Positions 8,314 through 20,412 of a stretch of 33,689 bases of DNA are shown in pieces. The notes under the pieces were generated by a model. It worked only from the letters and a program-made list of their open reading frames with translations. It had not been told where the DNA came from and searched no databases. Origin of the DNA: Ignavibacteriaceae bacterium (GTDB lineage Bacteria > Bacteroidota > Ignavibacteria > Ignavibacteriales > Ignavibacteriaceae); NCBI GenBank assembly GCA_014860115.1, contig JACZKK010000018.1, forward strand, positions 1 through 33,689. Direction: 5' to 3'. A program made the position numbers and the translations under genes. The first letter of the stretch is position 1, and the number at the start of each line of letters is the position of its first letter.

Positions 8314-11300
8314 ATGAAGGATCCAGCTCGATATTGTATTTTACTCGCTTTCGTGTTTTTATTCTTGTCTCAACAGGCATTCTCTCAAACTTATATTCCG
8401 GATAAAATTCAATTCAAACATGTTACCAGAGAACATGGTCTTTCTGACACTTACATTCAATGTTTAATTCAGGATAAAAAAGGATTTATCTGGATAGGGG
8501 TTCAAGAAGGATTATACAGATATGATGGACAGAAATTTAAATTATTTAAATATTCGCCAAATGCTCCAAATAGTCTGGGCAGAGGTGGAGTATTTGTTTT
8601 ATGCGAAGATAAATCAGGAGTTCTCTGGATTGCAACAGGTGGAGGCGGATTAAATCGATACAATACTGATCAGGAGAATTTTACCAGATTTCTCAATACT
8701 GAAGATTCTTCTGCTATGCATAATTTTATCTTAGGACTTTATGAAGATAAATCAGGCACTCTTTGGGCAGGAACACAATACGACGGATTATTTTCATTTG
8801 ATATTACAACGGAGAAATCAACTTATTATAAAAATATTCCTGATGATGTGACGAGCTTAAGTGAAAACAGGATCTGGACATTTTTCGAAGATTCAAAAAA
8901 TAATTTTTGGGTCGGTACATTATCAGGTGGGTTGAATAAATTTGATCGGGTTAATAAAAAGTTTACTCGTTATCTGCATAATCCAAGAGATCCAACTAGT
9001 ATAAGTTTTAATACCATAGCCGGTATTCGGGAAGATAAGTCAGGAAATATATGGATAGCAACCTTTGGGGGCGGACTGGACAGAATTACTTATAAAGATG
9101 ATAAACAAACTCCGATTTTTGTACATTATAAATTCGATCCTAAGAATCCTTCCAGTATAAACAGCAATTATCTTGTCTTCATTCATATAGATGAAAACGA
9201 TGTTCTTTGGCTTGGTACATCCGAGGATGGATTAAATAGATCTACTTCAAGCCCTAGTGGAAGTTCAGGGTTATCATTCATATCATACAAAAACGATCCG
9301 CTTGATAAATTTAGTCTGCTTGGTAATTATGTATCATGGATCTATCAGGACAATTCAGGGTTACTCTGGATTGGAAACCAGGGGGGAGGGCTGAATATTA
9401 TTAACACAAAGCAGAATCAATTCAAACTTTTTAGCCATAAACCGGATGACCCCAATTCTCTCAGCAGCAACAATGTTACTGCAATCTGTGAAGATAAATC
9501 CGGAGTGGTGTGGGTTGGAACTCACGATAAAGGATTAAATAAATGGGATAGAACAACAAATAAGTTTACTCATTATCAGCACAATCCAAACGATCCTACT
9601 AGTATAAGCGATAACCGGGTAACGGATATTTATGAGGATAAATCAGGTGTTTTGTGGGTGGCAACATATTTTGGTGGATTGAACAAGTTTGATAGGCGAA
9701 CTGGGAAGTTTTACACCTACTGGCACGATCCCTCAAATGTCAAAACTATTAGTGACAACTTAATCTATAGTATCAGTGAAGATAAATCTGGCGTGTTATG
9801 GATTGGAACTGCTAATGGTGGATTATGTACGTATGATAGAGAAAATGACTGCTTCATTCATTTTAATTATAAGTCTGATAGCTCAAACATATTGAGTTCG
9901 ACCCATTCCTCCAGTATTTACTTAGTTGATAAATCTGGAACTCTTTGGATAAGTGCTGATGATGGCGGTTTGATTTCTGTTAATCTTCAGAAAAATGAAA
10001 TTGTTCATTACAAGCACCAACCAAACAATCTGAATAGTCTGAGCAATGATGTTGTTACAGATGTATACGAGGATAAATCAGGATTTTACTGGATTGGAAC
10101 CAGTGGCGGCGGACTAAATAAATTTGACAAAGTCAATGGTCAATTCAGATGTTATCTAACAAAAGATGGATTACCGAGTGATAATATAACCGGAGTATTG
10201 GAGGATAATAATGGAAACCTTTGGATAACTACGAATGACGGATTGTCGAAATTTAATCCTCTGTCAGAATCTTTCAGAAACTACGACATTAAAGATGGAC
10301 TTTCAAGTATATCATTGACAAAGGGTCGTAAAGTTAAATCAGGTGAAATGATTTTGGGCAGTGATAATGGGTTTATTGTTTTTTATCCTGACAGTATAAA
10401 AGATAACACTCATATCCCTCCAGTTTTTATAACAGAATTTTATCTGTTTAATAAACCAGTTCAAATCGGATATGATTCTTTGAGCGGACGAACAATTCTG
10501 AGTAAATCCATAATTGAAATTAAAGAACTTGAATTGAATTTTGATGATAATGTTTTTGCATTCGAATTTGCCGCTTTGGATTATCACGCTCCGCTTAAGA
10601 ATAAGTATGCTTACAAAATGGAAGGGTTTGATAAGGACTGGACTTACACGGATGCAAACAGAAACACTGCAACCTATACGAATCTTGATCCGGGTGAATA
10701 CACATTCAGAGTTAAAGGGTCAAACAACGATGGTTACTGGAATGAACAAGGCGCATCAATTAGAATAATTATTTTACCCCCCTGGTGGCGAACGAACATA
10801 GCTTACCTGTTCTATATCCTATTTATCGCCGGAATAATCTATTTTACCTGGAGGATGCAGCTTAGAAGAATAAGAAATAAGCACGAATACGAGATGAGCA
10901 GATTCGAAGCACAGAAGCTGCACGAAGTAGATGAGTTGAAATCACGTTTCTTCACAAACATCTCCCACGAATTCAGGACTCCCCTCACACTTATACTTGG
11001 GCCAGTTAAGCAGATGATTGAAAAATTGAAGGAAGGAAAGATGAAAGATGATCTTGGTATAGTTCACAGAAATGCTAACAAATTGCTCGAACTTGTCAAC
11101 CAGTTGTTAGATATATCAAAGATTGAATCTGGAAATATGAAGTTGCAGACAGTTCCTCAAAACATAGTCCCGCTGGTAAAAGCATTGGCTTTATCATTTA
11201 CTTCTTATGCTGAAAGAAAAAAGATCACACTTAATTTTACTTCTACTGAGGATAAAATTGTTGTATACATTGATAAGGATAAAATTGAAAAGATTATTAC

Positions 11301-14366: not shown

Positions 14367-16550
14367 ATGAAAAAGTTTTACCTGTCGATTGTTTTATTAC
14401 TATTGGCTCAGGCACATACGCTTGCTCAATACGAATTTTTTAACAATCAAGAGCGATATAAAATAAATTCAGAACAACTAACCGATGCTTTCAATGCGAA
14501 TCTCGATTCTTTAATGCTTGATTCTATAATATTAGCCTATCAAAACTCACTGTCAATTCCAGGTATAGCAACTTTAATAATTAAAGACAATGAAGTAGTC
14601 TGGAATAAAAACTACGGATATAGAAACCTTCAATATCAATTACCTGTTGAAGATTCTACAATATTTCTTATAGTATCAATTTCAAAAACAATACTGGCTA
14701 CAGCTGTAATGCAGCTTTGGGAGAATGGATTGATTGACCTGGAGAAGAATGTAAATAATTATCTGCCAACCGGTTTTACAATCGCAAATCCAAGATTTCC
14801 AGGTGATACAATTACTGTAAAAATGCTGCTAACTCATACATCAAGCATTTTGGATAATGGAACTATTGAAATCCCCTTGATAAGCTGTGGTGATTCTCCA
14901 TTAAGTCTGGATAGTTTTCTTGTAAACTATTTGACACCAGGTGGATCATATTACAGTTTGAATAACTATGGTAATTATCGACCCGGGGAACAATGGAATT
15001 ATTCAAATCCTGGTTCTGCCGTGCTGGGATTGATAGTGGAGAACTTAACAGGAAAATCATTCGATCAATATTGCAAGGATAGCATTTTCATCCCTCTATC
15101 AATGAACTCTGCATCTTGGTTTTTAGCAGGAATGGATACTAATCAGATTGCAACTCCATATGTTGGATCAACACCAATTTGTCATCAGGGTTGGCCACAC
15201 TATCCCATAGGCTTTTTAAGAACAAACAAATTTGATTTAGCCAAGTTTCTGATGGCATATATGAATGGCGGAGTTTATAATAATGTAAGAATATTGGACA
15301 GCACAACTATATCATATATGCTCTCAGATCAACTCGGCTATCCTGCTGTGTATCTAGCACCTTGGTGGATTTGGAAACAAGGATTGCTTTGGTGGAATGC
15401 TTTCCCAATTAATAATTCAGCCTGGGGACACGCTGGTTCCTGGTATGGTTATCTGACTTATATGAGTTATGATCCTTCCGAGAAGTGGGGAACTATCTGG
15501 TTTCAAAATTGGAGACGCTATGAATCTGATGTATCAGGATTAGGAGAAATTAATAGTCATTTCACTAAATACGCCTATTTATATGGCAATATTTATGCGC
15601 TTGCTTCGAGTGTTGACAAACCTTATGCAAAAATAAATGTTGATTCTGTTTTGTTCAGATCAAGATTTTCAAATATTTATAATCATCAGTTTACACCACA
15701 TCTAATCTTTGCGAACCTCGATAGTACATTAATTGATTCACTTACTCTATTTGATGACGGTTTGCACGGTGATTCACTTTCGAATGATGGAATTTATGGT
15801 GGATATATTTCCCCAATACCGATTGAAGACTTCTTTGCATTAAGTGTCAGCACTCTAGACAATCAAACAAATAAATATTTTAATACTTCTGATCTTTGCC
15901 GATTTACAACCGCAGGCCCAGTAGTCATTGATTCATTAATTGTTACTTATAATCAATTTCCAAGAACGTATACCATTAAAGCTGCTGTAAAAAATGAGAG
16001 TCAATCGGTTACTCTTGAAAATCTTTATATAAATATGTCAACGGATGATAGTTCAATAACATACATAAGCGGATCGTTAAGTATAAACAGTTTAGCTCCT
16101 GGGCAGACTATAATTCCTTCCGGCAGCTTTACAGTAAGAGTTGATACAAATACGTTCTCAGGTGAATTCAAATTCAATTTTAATATTTACAGTAATACAC
16201 TGTTATACTGGTATGATTCGTTTACATATATTATAACTGAAGTTGAAGATAACGAGTCTTTACCTTTTACTTATAATCTTGAACAAAACTTCCCAAACCC
16301 GTTTAATCCAAACACTAATATCAAATTTCGAATTGCGGATTTCGAATTTGTGAGTTTAAAAGTTTATGATTTACTTGGACGAGAAATTGTAACACTTATC
16401 AACGAAGAAAAACCTGCCGGAGAATATGAAGTTGAGTTCAATGCATCAAATCTTCCAAGTGGGATTTATTTTTATCAGTTAAGAGCCACACCTGGCGGCG
16501 GGCAAGCAGGTTCGTTTGTTGAGACGAAGAAGATGGTTTTGATAAGATAG
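14367..16550 (+). CDS. Secreted serine hydrolase, class-C beta-lactamase/DD-peptidase fold, with T9SS sorting domain
   Basis: A 727-residue protein in the beta-lactamase-related (Pfam PF00144) serine hydrolase family. A signal peptide (about 1-21) leads to the catalytic domain (about 45-420): S-x-x-K as SISK with Ser104 and Lys107, Y-x-N as YSN with Tyr212 and Asn214, and the third motif as HAG at His355-Gly357. All three active-site boxes are intact. This family covers class C beta-lactamases, DD-peptidases, esterases and D-amino-peptidases, so the substrate is open. Residues about 420-640 resemble Ig-like beta sandwich regions, including a calcium-loop-like DDGLHGDSLSNDGIYGG segment. The C-terminus is a type A sorting domain, with an odd GC-rich insertion in its last loop. 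AGGAGG lies seven bases before ATG. It is probably co-transcribed with the preceding Asp-box gene. Confidence 0.9.
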   Translation: MKKFYLSIVLLLLAQAHTLAQYEFFNNQERYKINSEQLTDAFNANLDSLMLDSIILAYQNSLSIPGIATLIIKDNEVVWNKNYGYRNLQYQLPVEDSTIFLIVSISKTILATAVMQLWENGLIDLEKNVNNYLPTGFTIANPRFPGDTITVKMLLTHTSSILDNGTIEIPLISCGDSPLSLDSFLVNYLTPGGSYYSLNNYGNYRPGEQWNYSNPGSAVLGLIVENLTGKSFDQYCKDSIFIPLSMNSASWFLAGMDTNQIATPYVGSTPICHQGWPHYPIGFLRTNKFDLAKFLMAYMNGGVYNNVRILDSTTISYMLSDQLGYPAVYLAPWWIWKQGLLWWNAFPINNSAWGHAGSWYGYLTYMSYDPSEKWGTIWFQNWRRYESDVSGLGEINSHFTKYAYLYGNIYALASSVDKPYAKINVDSVLFRSRFSNIYNHQFTPHLIFANLDSTLIDSLTLFDDGLHGDSLSNDGIYGGYISPIPIEDFFALSVSTLDNQTNKYFNTSDLCRFTTAGPVVIDSLIVTYNQFPRTYTIKAAVKNESQSVTLENLYINMSTDDSSITYISGSLSINSLAPGQTIIPSGSFTVRVDTNTFSGEFKFNFNIYSNTLLYWYDSFTYIITEVEDNESLPFTYNLEQNFPNPFNPNTNIKFRIADFEFVSLKVYDLLGREIVTLINEEKPAGEYEVEFNASNLPSGIYFYQLRATPGGGQAGSFVETKKMVLIR
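16484..16513 (+). repeat. GC-rich short insertion in a T9SS sorting-domain loop
   Basis: Bases encoding ATPGGGQAGS sit where the neighbouring tail has just RAEEY. The 24 bases at 16486-16509 have 18 G or C, against an AT-rich gene, with short complementary ends (ACCTG/CAGGT). This looks like a small inserted sequence kept in frame. Confidence 0.4.
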
Positions 16551-18104: not shown

Positions 18105-19349
18105 TTACTTAATGAATTTTATGAATTTTCTTTTACCAACTTTCAGAACCATCCCATCATTTAGCTTTACCGTATAATTAAAATCTGTGATTTTATTTCC
18201 ATCTATTGAAACGCCACCCTGAGTGACCAATCTGCGGGCTTCACCTTTTGATGGAGCAAAATTTACTTTGAGAATCAGGTCTAATATATTAAACTCTGCG
18301 ATATTGTCATCAATTTTAAATTCTTCGACTTCGTCCGGCACTTCTTTTTTTATAAAGATTCTGTCAAACTCTTCTTCAGCTTGGATTGCTGCTTCTTCGT
18401 TGTGATACATTCTCACCAAAGTTCGTGCAAGTCTCCTCTTAATATCTCTTGGATTTACTTTCGAATCTTCAAGCTGATGTTTAACACCCTTTAATTCTGA
18501 TAATGAAATATCAGAAGCCAGCTCATAATAGATGTAAATCACACTATCGGGAATTGAAAGTGTCTTACCGAAAATTTCTTTCGGAGATTCAGAAATTCCA
18601 ATATAATTATCGTAAGATTTACTCATCTTCTCAACACCATCAGTTCCAACAAGAAGAGGCATTGTTAAAATAACCTGTGGTTCCTGTCCATGTTCTCTTT
18701 GAATATCTCTTCCAACCAGCAAATTAAATTTCTGATCAGTCCCTCCCAATTCAACATCGCTTTTAATAGCAACAGAATCCATTGCCTGTGCAAGAGGGTA
18801 GAGGAGTTCGTGAATACTTATTGGTTCGCCAGCTTTGTAGCGTTTAGTAAAATCATCACGTTCCAGCATTCGTGCCACAGTATATTTTGAAGCAAGTTTT
18901 ATCACATCTTCAAAACTCATCTTGCCAAGCCAATCGGAGTTGTAAACTATTTTTGTACGATTCGCATCCAGAATCTTTGATGCTTGCTGAAAATAAGTTT
19001 CACCGTGTTCTCTTGTTTCCTTTAATGTGAGAGATGGACGTGTTGCATTTCTTCCGGACGGATCGCCAATCATTCCGGTAAAGTCACCAACGATTAGTAT
19101 TGCCTGATGTCCGAGTGATTGAAACTGTGCTAGTTTTCTTAAAACGACTGAATGTCCGATATGAAGATCTGGTCTAGAAGGATCGCAGCCAAGTTTTATA
19201 TTTAACGGTGTTCCTTCATTAGCAGAGCGTTCAAGCTTTTTAACTAAATCCTCTTCAGGTATAATTTCGCTTGTACCTCTTTTAATGAGGTCCATCTGCT
19301 CGGTGATTGGGGGAAACTTTAGTTTAGTGAGCAAAATAGTCTCGGTCAT
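18105..19349 (-). CDS. tyrS: Tyrosyl-tRNA synthetase
   Basis: The cytoplasmic class Ic synthetase charges tRNA-Tyr with tyrosine. Of 414 residues, the Rossmann catalytic domain has GCDPSRPDLHIGHS with HIGH at 63-66, GDFTGMIGDPSGR (88-100), a tyrosine-binding ELGGTDQKFN (200-209) and KMSKS at 241-245. The C-terminal region from about 350 has an S4 RNA-binding domain (FAPSKGEARRLVTQGGVSIDG). Size and motif order are standard for the bacterial TyrRS subgroup with KMSKS rather than KFGKT. No T-box-like leader is seen. ATG at 19349 has no obvious Shine-Dalgarno. A four-helix-bundle gene separates it from smpB, and pdaD follows closely. Confidence 0.97.
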   Translation of the reverse strand: MTETILLTKLKFPPITEQMDLIKRGTSEIIPEEDLVKKLERSANEGTPLNIKLGCDPSRPDLHIGHSVVLRKLAQFQSLGHQAILIVGDFTGMIGDPSGRNATRPSLTLKETREHGETYFQQASKILDANRTKIVYNSDWLGKMSFEDVIKLASKYTVARMLERDDFTKRYKAGEPISIHELLYPLAQAMDSVAIKSDVELGGTDQKFNLLVGRDIQREHGQEPQVILTMPLLVGTDGVEKMSKSYDNYIGISESPKEIFGKTLSIPDSVIYIYYELASDISLSELKGVKHQLEDSKVNPRDIKRRLARTLVRMYHNEEAAIQAEEEFDRIFIKKEVPDEVEEFKIDDNIAEFNILDLILKVNFAPSKGEARRLVTQGGVSIDGNKITDFNYTVKLNDGMVLKVGKRKFIKFIK

Positions 19350-19386: not shown

Positions 19387-19414
19387 TTTGTATGAATGTA
19401 TGATTGTATGGTTC
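19387..19414 (+). repeat. Left inverted repeat flanking the four-helix-bundle gene
   Basis: Three tandem TGTATG-containing octamers (TTGTATGA, ATGTATGA, TTGTATGG). TGTATGATTGTATGG at 19397-19411 is exactly the reverse complement of 19924-19938. Confidence 0.75.
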
Positions 19415-19880
19415 ATTCTATCCCATAACTTTCAATAATTTCTCTGATCAAATAGTCATTCTTCCAATCTTCTTTTGCTTTCATCTTCGAGATGTAAGTT
19501 TGGTTTAACTTAATAAGTTTATTCTCTAATGAATAATGTTTTTTATCGTACTCTTTGAACCAATCAATATCAATGTCACCTGAATTAGTTAAAGTAAATA
19601 TTTGAGAATAATTCTCTCCCAAAGAGGAAAGTGAAATGGCTATGTATTGAATGTTTTCTTTAATTGATCGTCTGCAATATCCTTCGGCTATATTAGAATG
19701 TACCGAAAAAATAGAATCCTCAACCTGAGCTTTTACTTTAAAAGATAGATTGTCAAGTGTTTTTAATTTTTCTCTTACGAAATGAAAAAGTTCAACCGCT
19801 TCTTTCCAAACCTCAAGTTCTCTATATCCACGATTAATATTTTTGTGTTGCTGTAATAGTTCTTTTAACTCTTCTTTCAT
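19413..19880 (-). CDS. Four-helix bundle (S23/IVS-type) protein
   Basis: The 155-residue protein has the signature of the four-helix bundle family first found in intervening sequences of 23S rRNA genes: NRGYRELEVWKEAVEL near the N-terminus, a middle VEDSIFSVHSNIAEGYCRRS and then an ALSSLGEN-like SLSSLGENYSQI. Avd proteins of diversity-generating retroelements have the same fold. The family is a basic, homopentameric, nucleic-acid-binding bundle of mostly unknown function. In this copy no rRNA or retroelement is near: it stands between smpB and tyrS and is bracketed by an exact 15-bp inverted repeat (19397-19411 and 19924-19938), with the stop codon two bases from the left arm. That layout suggests a small mobile or passenger cassette. 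Its role is unknown. Confidence 0.85.
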   Translation of the reverse strand: MKEELKELLQQHKNINRGYRELEVWKEAVELFHFVREKLKTLDNLSFKVKAQVEDSIFSVHSNIAEGYCRRSIKENIQYIAISLSSLGENYSQIFTLTNSGDIDIDWFKEYDKKHYSLENKLIKLNQTYISKMKAKEDWKNDYLIREIIESYGIE

Positions 19881-19912
19881 AATAAATACTCAAGAGTAAT
19901 GTTCAATTCTAA

Positions 19913-19940
19913 TTTTCATACATCCATACAATCATACAAA
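19913..19940 (-). repeat. Right inverted repeat flanking the four-helix-bundle gene
   Basis: On the minus strand this reads TTTGTATGATTGTATGG followed by ATGTATGAAAA, the same octamer units as the left arm in a different order. The shared exact core is 15 bp (19924-19938). It lies between smpB and the four-helix-bundle gene. Confidence 0.75.
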
Positions 19941-19953
19941 GGGTTGGTGTACG

Positions 19954-20412
19954 TTAATACTTTATTCTTCTTTCTTGTTCTCTCTGGAAATCTTTTTTAG
20001 CTATATCGTGACGCTTATCGTAAACTTTTTTACCTTTGGCTAAAGCTAATTCAACTTTCACTTTCCCATTTTTAAAATATAATCTCAATGGAACCAAAGT
20101 TAATCCTTTTTCTTTGGTTTTTCCAATAAGCTTTCTGATTTCACTACTTTTCAGCAGGAGTTTTCTGTCTCTGACTGGATCATGATTATTAATGTTGCCC
20201 TGCGTGTATTCACTGATGTGAACACTTACAAGCCAGACTTCACCTCTTTCAATTTTTCCATAACCATCAACAAGGTTAGCCTTGCCCTGGCGTAATGCTT
20301 TTACCTCCGTTCCAACAAGTACAATTCCAGCTTCATACGTTTGTAAAATTGCATACTCATGTCTTGCTTTACGGTTTACAGTTATATTTTTTTCAGTGTC
20401 TTCTTTTTGCAT
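19954..20412 (-). CDS. smpB: SsrA-binding protein SmpB
   Basis: SmpB binds tmRNA and brings it to stalled ribosomes for trans-translation. The 152-residue length is normal and the family motifs are present: [10 protein letters not shown] (10-20 region), [21 protein letters not shown], a DHPxRxRKLL-type motif as [13 protein letters not shown], and [28 protein letters not shown] near the end, with a basic [20 protein letters not shown]-like tail that enters the decoding centre. Start ATG at 20412 lacks a clear Shine-Dalgarno; a small CGCT-TT-AGCG hairpin lies just upstream (20417-20426 region). The tmRNA gene itself was not found in the window. Confidence 0.97.

Follow-up and report, generated by a model that had tools for sequence, protein, structure and literature searches.

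Inverted arrays of seven- or eight-nucleotide repeats around S23 genes in bacterial operons

Why should a small gene between two co-oriented genes be bracketed by short repeats that read inward from both sides? The question arises in a stretch of 33,689 nucleotides (nt) from an Ignavibacteriaceae bacterium (contig JACZKK010000018.1; the window, below), where a gene of the S23 / 23S_rRNA_IVP family stands between smpB and tyrS. The original prediction had reported an exact 15-base-pair (bp) inverted repeat around this one gene, built of TGTATG octamers, and suggested a free-standing mobile cassette. The description is accurate: TGTATGATTGTATGG at 19397–19411 has its inverted copy at 19924–19938, each arm consists of three TGTATG+NN units, and only the S23 gene is enclosed. 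No other exact inverted pair of at least 15 bp within 1 kb exists in the window. Because block-shuffled versions of the window contained at least one exact 15-bp inverted pair in 15 of 200 cases (mean 0.095), the repeat alone is weak evidence, and the weight rests on recurrence at other S23 loci.

Arms, period and placement at S23 genes

S23 genes matching PF05635 were found in 53 of the 59 genomes searched, including the source genome, which has nine such places. Seven of these nine had an arm score of at least 24 when their flanks were compared, a check proposed with the original prediction, and the letters of the arms differed at each locus. Among the S23 loci of the source genome and its relatives, the own-pair arm score reached at least 30 in 24 of 50, compared with 24 of 2450 mismatched pairs, 0 of 28 smpB genes and 6 of 318 open reading frames (ORFs) of genome G002, a control left uncleaned, in which two of the four top-scoring small ORFs are S23-like and one is GxxExxY-like by sequence reading. 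The same level was reached by 43 of 78 named loci taken from genome contigs; mismatched pairs attained it in 328 of 6006 cases and ORFs neighbouring the loci in 9 of 121. This set includes Planctomycetales, Pseudanabaena, a deltaproteobacterium and an ANME-1 archaeon. The ORFs retained were 35 of 38 in the first arm scoring (short flanks excluded), 50 of 59 for the relatives and 78 of 80 for the named loci. Locus L161 was removed as a copy of L015 from the counts of period, same-site comparison, position and clade, and the near-identical L214 and L217 were both retained in these and in the named-loci counts. At L007 the arms contain an exact inverted pair of 24 bp. S23 genes of the relatives, and of named Bacteroidota, Chlorobiota, Planctomycetes, Cyanobacteria and an ANME-1 archaeon, typically have inverted arms of about 4–5 degenerate units of 7 nt (8 nt in the subfamily of the window gene), with letters specific to the locus even within one genome.

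The arms are periodic. In those scoring at least 30, identity at lags 7, 14 and 21 is 0.61, 0.61 and 0.57 over a background of about 0.3, and of the 61 arms of at least 20 nt (of 65; shorter ones were left out), 46 have their best lag at 7 and 10 at 8. When windows were taken regardless of any inverted match, with the array threshold set at the 99% shuffle level, lag-7 arrays were detected at 73 of 127 S23 genes on the upstream side and at 66 of 127 on the downstream side; lag 8 was found at 9 and 11 loci, respectively, and any other lag at 0–3 upstream and 0–4 downstream. The modal array has 4–5 units and the median length is 32 nt. Control ORFs had lag-7 arrays in 6 (upstream) and 9 (downstream) of 318 cases.

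Whether the period is 7 or 8 nt goes with the clade of the S23 protein. Relatives of the window protein, referred to here as window-like S23, occur in 15 of the 59 genomes and have arms of TGNATG or TGGAAT type; clear arrays are seen in 18 of their 21 rows (two of the 18 being one place), all with lag 8 and none with lag 7. The other S23 loci (n = 125) have lag 7 in 91 cases, lag 8 in 10 and lag 10 in one (Fisher 1.4e-14, a value that ignores kinship). On a poorly resolved S23 tree of 114 rows, from which L103 (the same place as L247) and L217 were omitted, the period label needs 8 changes compared with 23.9 after shuffling, and none of 500 shuffles gave so low a number. Within the subfamily of the window gene, arms of TGNATGNN type are found at several non-homologous sites. 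When loci at different sites are compared (arm score of at least 30 in both), mean arm similarity increases from 10.8 at less than 30% protein identity to 23.2 at more than 60%; the arms therefore belong to the protein lineage and not to the place.

Between species the letters of the arms turn over, and the period, the inverted match and the position persist. In 195 of 200 same-site pairs, and in 194 of 194 with proteins less than 80% identical, the two arms of a locus resemble each other more than the equivalent arms of the two species do; both loci of each pair were preselected at an arm score of at least 30, a choice that works in favour of this outcome, and some loci enter more than one pair. 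In an unselected cluster of 36 loci in a fatty-acid oxidation operon, one neighbourhood that spans more than one gap, own scores reach at least 30 in 19 of 36 (mean 32.3) vs 71 of 1260 across species (mean 18.4), and smaller shared sites agree. Host genes recognised by profiles include thiolase/acyl-CoA dehydrogenase, methylmalonyl-CoA mutase, metH-metF, nuoC-nuoD and a pair of ATP-binding cassette (ABC) permeases. At nuoC-nuoD of G057 (L015), one arm has grown to a long run of alternating GAGATTT and GAGACAC heptamers and the other is short.

The placement of the arms is also regular. Relative to the end of the stop codon of the preceding gene, the median start of the 5' array lies 1 nt upstream (quartiles −3 and +4; 56 of 73 within 10 nt), and this codon is TAG in 54 of 122 S23 loci vs 28 of 137 other ORFs. 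In 47 of 48 and 76 of 76 loci the S23 gene and the gene upstream of it are on one strand, compared with 70 of 88 and 129 of 174 in the controls, and nearly all S23 copies of Bacteroidota and Ignavibacteria lie in sense inside operons. Arrays are present at cyanobacterial plasmid loci as well: in eight examined among 30 records with a match, seven have lag 7 and one lag 8, and five have an arm score of at least 24. Two cassettes of cyanobacterial plasmids, L366 and L371, lie within clustered regularly interspaced short palindromic repeat (CRISPR) operons, at cas6/cas4 and at cas10/cmr2 / cmr3.

The smpB-tyrS locus and arrays without a gene

The features of the window locus are listed in Table 1. 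The S23 gene scores 58.1 bits against PF05635 (cut-off 33.8, E 1.2e-15) and 51 bits against TIGR02436 (cut-off 24, E 1.4e-13) in profile searches, and it shares one strand with smpB and tyrS. Both arms are A+T-rich and built of three degenerate 8-nt TGTATGNN units each; in extended form (19387–19410 and 19917–19940) they measure 24 nt, are 88% complementary and stand 506 nt apart. The predicted RNA fold of the cassette is closed by pairing of the two arms (z −3.1).

Table 1. Features of the S23 cassette and its neighbours in the window
Feature	Position	Strand	Remarks
S23 / 23S_rRNA_IVP gene, predicted four-helix bundle, 155 aa	19413..19880	-	PF05635, TIGR02436, AlphaFold2 model
5' (upstream) arm, three units of 8 nt, reading TTTGTATGATTGTATGGATGTATG on the gene strand	19917..19940	-	smpB stop codon 13 nt before
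3' (downstream) arm, inverted copy, TGTATGAA TGTATGAT TGTATGG	19387..19411	+	1 nt past gene end; tyrS 37 nt on
smpB, upstream, co-oriented	19954..20412	-	TIGR00086, 184.8 bits, cut-off 119.1
tyrS, downstream, co-oriented	18105..19349	-	TIGR00234, 377 bits, cut-off 113.8

The window protein is a predicted four-helix bundle of the S23 / 23S_rRNA_IVP family. Its AlphaFold2 monomer model (predicted local distance difference test, pLDDT, 92; six helices) has its best PDB matches in Foldseek to 2gsc and 2rld, with five chains each (2gsc_B, E 3e-4, template modelling score 0.85 by target), and a weak fold match to Avd of diversity-generating retroelements (8ub7, 4dwl). Avd binds RNA in its complex. 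The 2gsc entry is Xcc0516 of X. campestris; the Xanthomonas S23 structure is a ring of five, and the part of the source that treats S23 proteins gives them no known function (PMC4990558).

The smpB-tyrS interval was traced in relatives through smpB loci fetched for 30 of 55 genomes with a match, both genes being found in 28. Only G000 and G002 have S23 at this site, with proteins 88% identical and arms of TGTATG units that differ in number; it is absent from G003 and G001 of the same genus. Sites lacking the gene, which the original prediction had hoped would reveal the empty site, are common (26 of 28). A clean empty site was sought within the genus at smpB-tyrS, L006 and L007 and abandoned, because the S23-free gaps there hold a palindrome GTCATTGCGA..TCGCAATGAC or a short fold-back and the boundaries cannot be fixed. 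Palindromes of this GTCATTGCGA...TCGCAATGAC type occur in the smpB-tyrS gap of G003 (L040) and at the L006 site of G004 and G001 (L147, L148). Arrays are present in three of the 26 S23-free gaps. In G023 the gap is occupied by a long TGAATGGA array, the unit of that genome's own S23 cassette at another site.

Such dispersed arrays are numerous. Matches to a three-unit TGNATGNN array number 16 in G000, 43 in G002 and 46 in G023 (overlapping ones counted apart), with one, two and one window-like S23 genes, respectively; the reversed pattern has zero matches in these three genomes. Some of the arrays form inverted pairs without a gene. Across the 59 genomes, TGNATGNN arrays and window-like S23 occur together in 13, the S23 gene only in 2 and neither in 33 (Fisher 3.9e-5 for co-occurrence, kinship ignored). 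No lag-7 or lag-8 arrays scoring at least 15 were found in 255 kb of G027 and 221 kb of G001, which have no S23. Several TGNATGNN arrays lie apparently inside reading frames and add residues (L279 and L276 in G000, L263 and L272 in G002); by reading of the translation these frames are asparagine synthetase-like, epimerase-like in two species, and mnmA-like.

Two other possibilities were set aside. A common terminator, which the original prediction had named as the finding that would count against it, does not describe them: gene-less arrays do exist, some apparently inside genes, and the window arms are A+T-rich and far apart, not a short G+C-rich hairpin followed by a T run. Carriage by phage was searched with one S23 protein in a phage collection and gave no match. 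As to the proposed mobile cassette, the cassette is borne out by arms that recur at other S23 genes and at several non-homologous sites, and mobility is shown only in part: several insertions are old and common to more than one genus, and neither a target duplication nor a clean empty site was found.

Proposed recognition by an S23 ring and the rival explanations

We lean towards reading the window cassette as a free-standing element of operons that corresponds to the intervening sequence (IVS) of 23S rRNA with its S23 gene, and the ring-forming S23 protein as one that recognises the repeats. In the sections of the Coxiella burnetii report that deal with its IVS, the terminal inverted repeats form a 28-bp stem cut by RNase III, and three or two tandem heptamers, depending on strain, directly precede the S23 start codon (PMC4990558). 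As far as those sections go, the two elements share an S23 gene between complementary termini with short tandem units upstream, and differ in that the Coxiella IVS lies in helix 45 of 23S rRNA and has heptamers, whereas the window cassette lies in the smpB-tyrS interval and has 8-nt units. Two conserved 23S motifs were absent from 236 loci, and the window gene is not inserted in 23S rRNA.

The recurrence of arms with their own words at S23 relatives suggests that the protein reads the repeats, and the most likely reason for the clade-specific period is judged to be that the S23 ring recognises the array. Each subunit would bind roughly one unit, which for a ring of five chains would fit both the 4–5 units per arm and the clade-specific spacing. 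In the operon transcript the arms might pair into a stem around the S23 gene, and by analogy with Coxiella 23S rRNA this stem could be cut by a double-strand RNase such as RNase III; the predicted fold together with the IVS precedent suggests RNA processing. Arrays and cassettes would occasionally be copied to new sites by a step that may also keep both arms alike.

Several observations weigh against this reading. Target-site duplications were not seen at smpB-tyrS, L006 or L007 in relatives, where the S23-free gaps are rearranged or repeat-filled. Eleven of the 59 genomes have TGNATGNN arrays without a window-like S23 gene, and lag-7 arrays accompany neighbouring ORFs clear of the cassette in 11 of 57 cases upstream and 4 of 57 downstream. 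G016 has no PF05635 or TIGR02436 match and yet eight lag-7 arrays in 254 kb, which rules out a strict dependence of arrays on S23; arrays are at least able to persist once the gene is gone, or to have a different partner. On the cyanobacterial plasmids three of eight S23 genes are antisense to both neighbours, so the sense rule is not general, and one, between cas6 and cas4, lies in direct and not inverted arrays. Finally, an excess of G-U over A-C was not found among arm mismatches (48 vs 66, p 0.11). This speaks against selection on base pairs, and the RNA stem is therefore not retained as the principal target of selection; the concerted change of the arms would be explained more simply by DNA-level copying between them. 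G016 also contains, near 8955–9312 of L352, an Avd-like gene and, directly after it, a reverse transcriptase frame that contains YVDD; together they are likely to be a diversity-generating retroelement.

Part of these observations would be expected if the arrays were satellites born and homogenised in tolerated gaps by replication slippage and by template switching between inverted copies, with S23 genes merely situated among them and the protein reading nothing. Slippage has already been put forward for heptameric repeats (PMC4692102), and arms that differ in unit number, arrays apparently inside genes and arrays in S23-less G016 all accord with it. It is nevertheless unlikely, because slippage alone predicts neither the enrichment of arrays at S23 flanks (73 of 127 vs 6 of 318), nor a period that follows the S23 clade, nor arms that are inverted copies beginning at stop codons. 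A purely RNA-based device, that is, a hairpin in the transcript that sets the S23 cistron apart or processes it as an RNase III site or stability element and involves no recognition of the repeats by a protein, would account for the sense orientation (123 of 124), for the closure of the predicted fold by the arms and, from what the Coxiella source reports on its IVS, for the RNase III precedent (PMC4990558). A hairpin, however, requires neither a 7- or 8-nt period nor its match to the clade, and the arms lack a G-U bias, which makes this explanation improbable. Least probable is a conventional transposon or miniature inverted-repeat transposable element (MITE) whose terminal inverted repeats a transposase acting in trans would read. 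The inverted ends, the scattered copies and hairpins without a gene, and gain or loss at smpB-tyrS are all in its favour, but the cassette has no transposase, its termini vary from locus to locus in one genome, and the three sites mentioned above, with their rearranged S23-free gaps, gave no target duplication.

A wider proposal, that S23 rings are autonomous partners of a transposase-free genome-wide repeat system with one period per clade, whose cassettes and gene-less arrays spread and are homogenised within a genome and which unites IVSs, operon cassettes and the unexplained heptamers of Xanthomonas, Nostoc and Beggiatoaceae, is tentative and rather doubtful. In the sections of the paper that describe them, the GGGAATC and GGGGA(C/T)T heptamers of Xanthomonas and Nostoc are dispersed, mostly in 4 units and often as inverted pairs, shortly after or overlapping stop codons, and heptamer repeats are called over-represented in bacteria without detailed study (PMC4692102). 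On that description they resemble S23 arms in degeneracy, in about four units, in inverted pairs and in stop-codon proximity, and differ in having one main unit per genome and, in those sections, no named protein partner. TAACTGA direct repeats are intergenic, in 2–6 units, in Beggiatoaceae, Cyanobacteria and Bacteroidetes (PMC4679880). To the extent that this source describes them, they are like S23 arms in being intergenic heptamers with a patchy distribution over the same phyla, and unlike them in being direct rather than inverted and mostly before start codons; the terms 'S23', 'four helix' and '23S rRNA' are absent from the text of the paper (PMC4679880). No tie between dispersed arrays and S23 genes was found in searches of the open-licence PubMed Central literature. 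The link between S23 genes and repeats whose period goes with the protein clade gives the functionally unassigned S23 family and the little-studied heptamers each a testable partner, and connects fragmented 23S rRNA with a widespread cassette in core operons such as nuoC-nuoD and metH-metF.

Repetitive extragenic palindromic (REP) sequences and REPINs are scattered short repeats and hairpins that accompany and flank a resident gene, that of the REP-associated tyrosine transposase (RAYT). In the features considered here, dispersed repeats and a flanked resident gene are common to REP/RAYT and the S23 system; RAYT is a tyrosine (HUH, Y1) transposase, whereas the window S23 protein is a predicted four-helix bundle that matched no transposase family in profile searches. 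Avd of diversity-generating retroelements is likewise a four-helix bundle, but the window gene, with smpB and tyrS as neighbours, has no adjoining reverse transcriptase.

Genes of the GxxExxY family (TIGR04256; L087–L116, and L122 at 15722–16178) are also flanked by inverted degenerate repeats. They were considered as a second cargo, and this was rejected since a lag-7 period was seen in 0 of 26. Their flanks score at least 30 in 15 of 26, but mismatched pairs also often match (39 of 650). The loci are possibly a second cassette family; their flanks share a core such as CGCAAAG or CACAGAG, and 24 of 25 lie in sense with the upstream neighbour.
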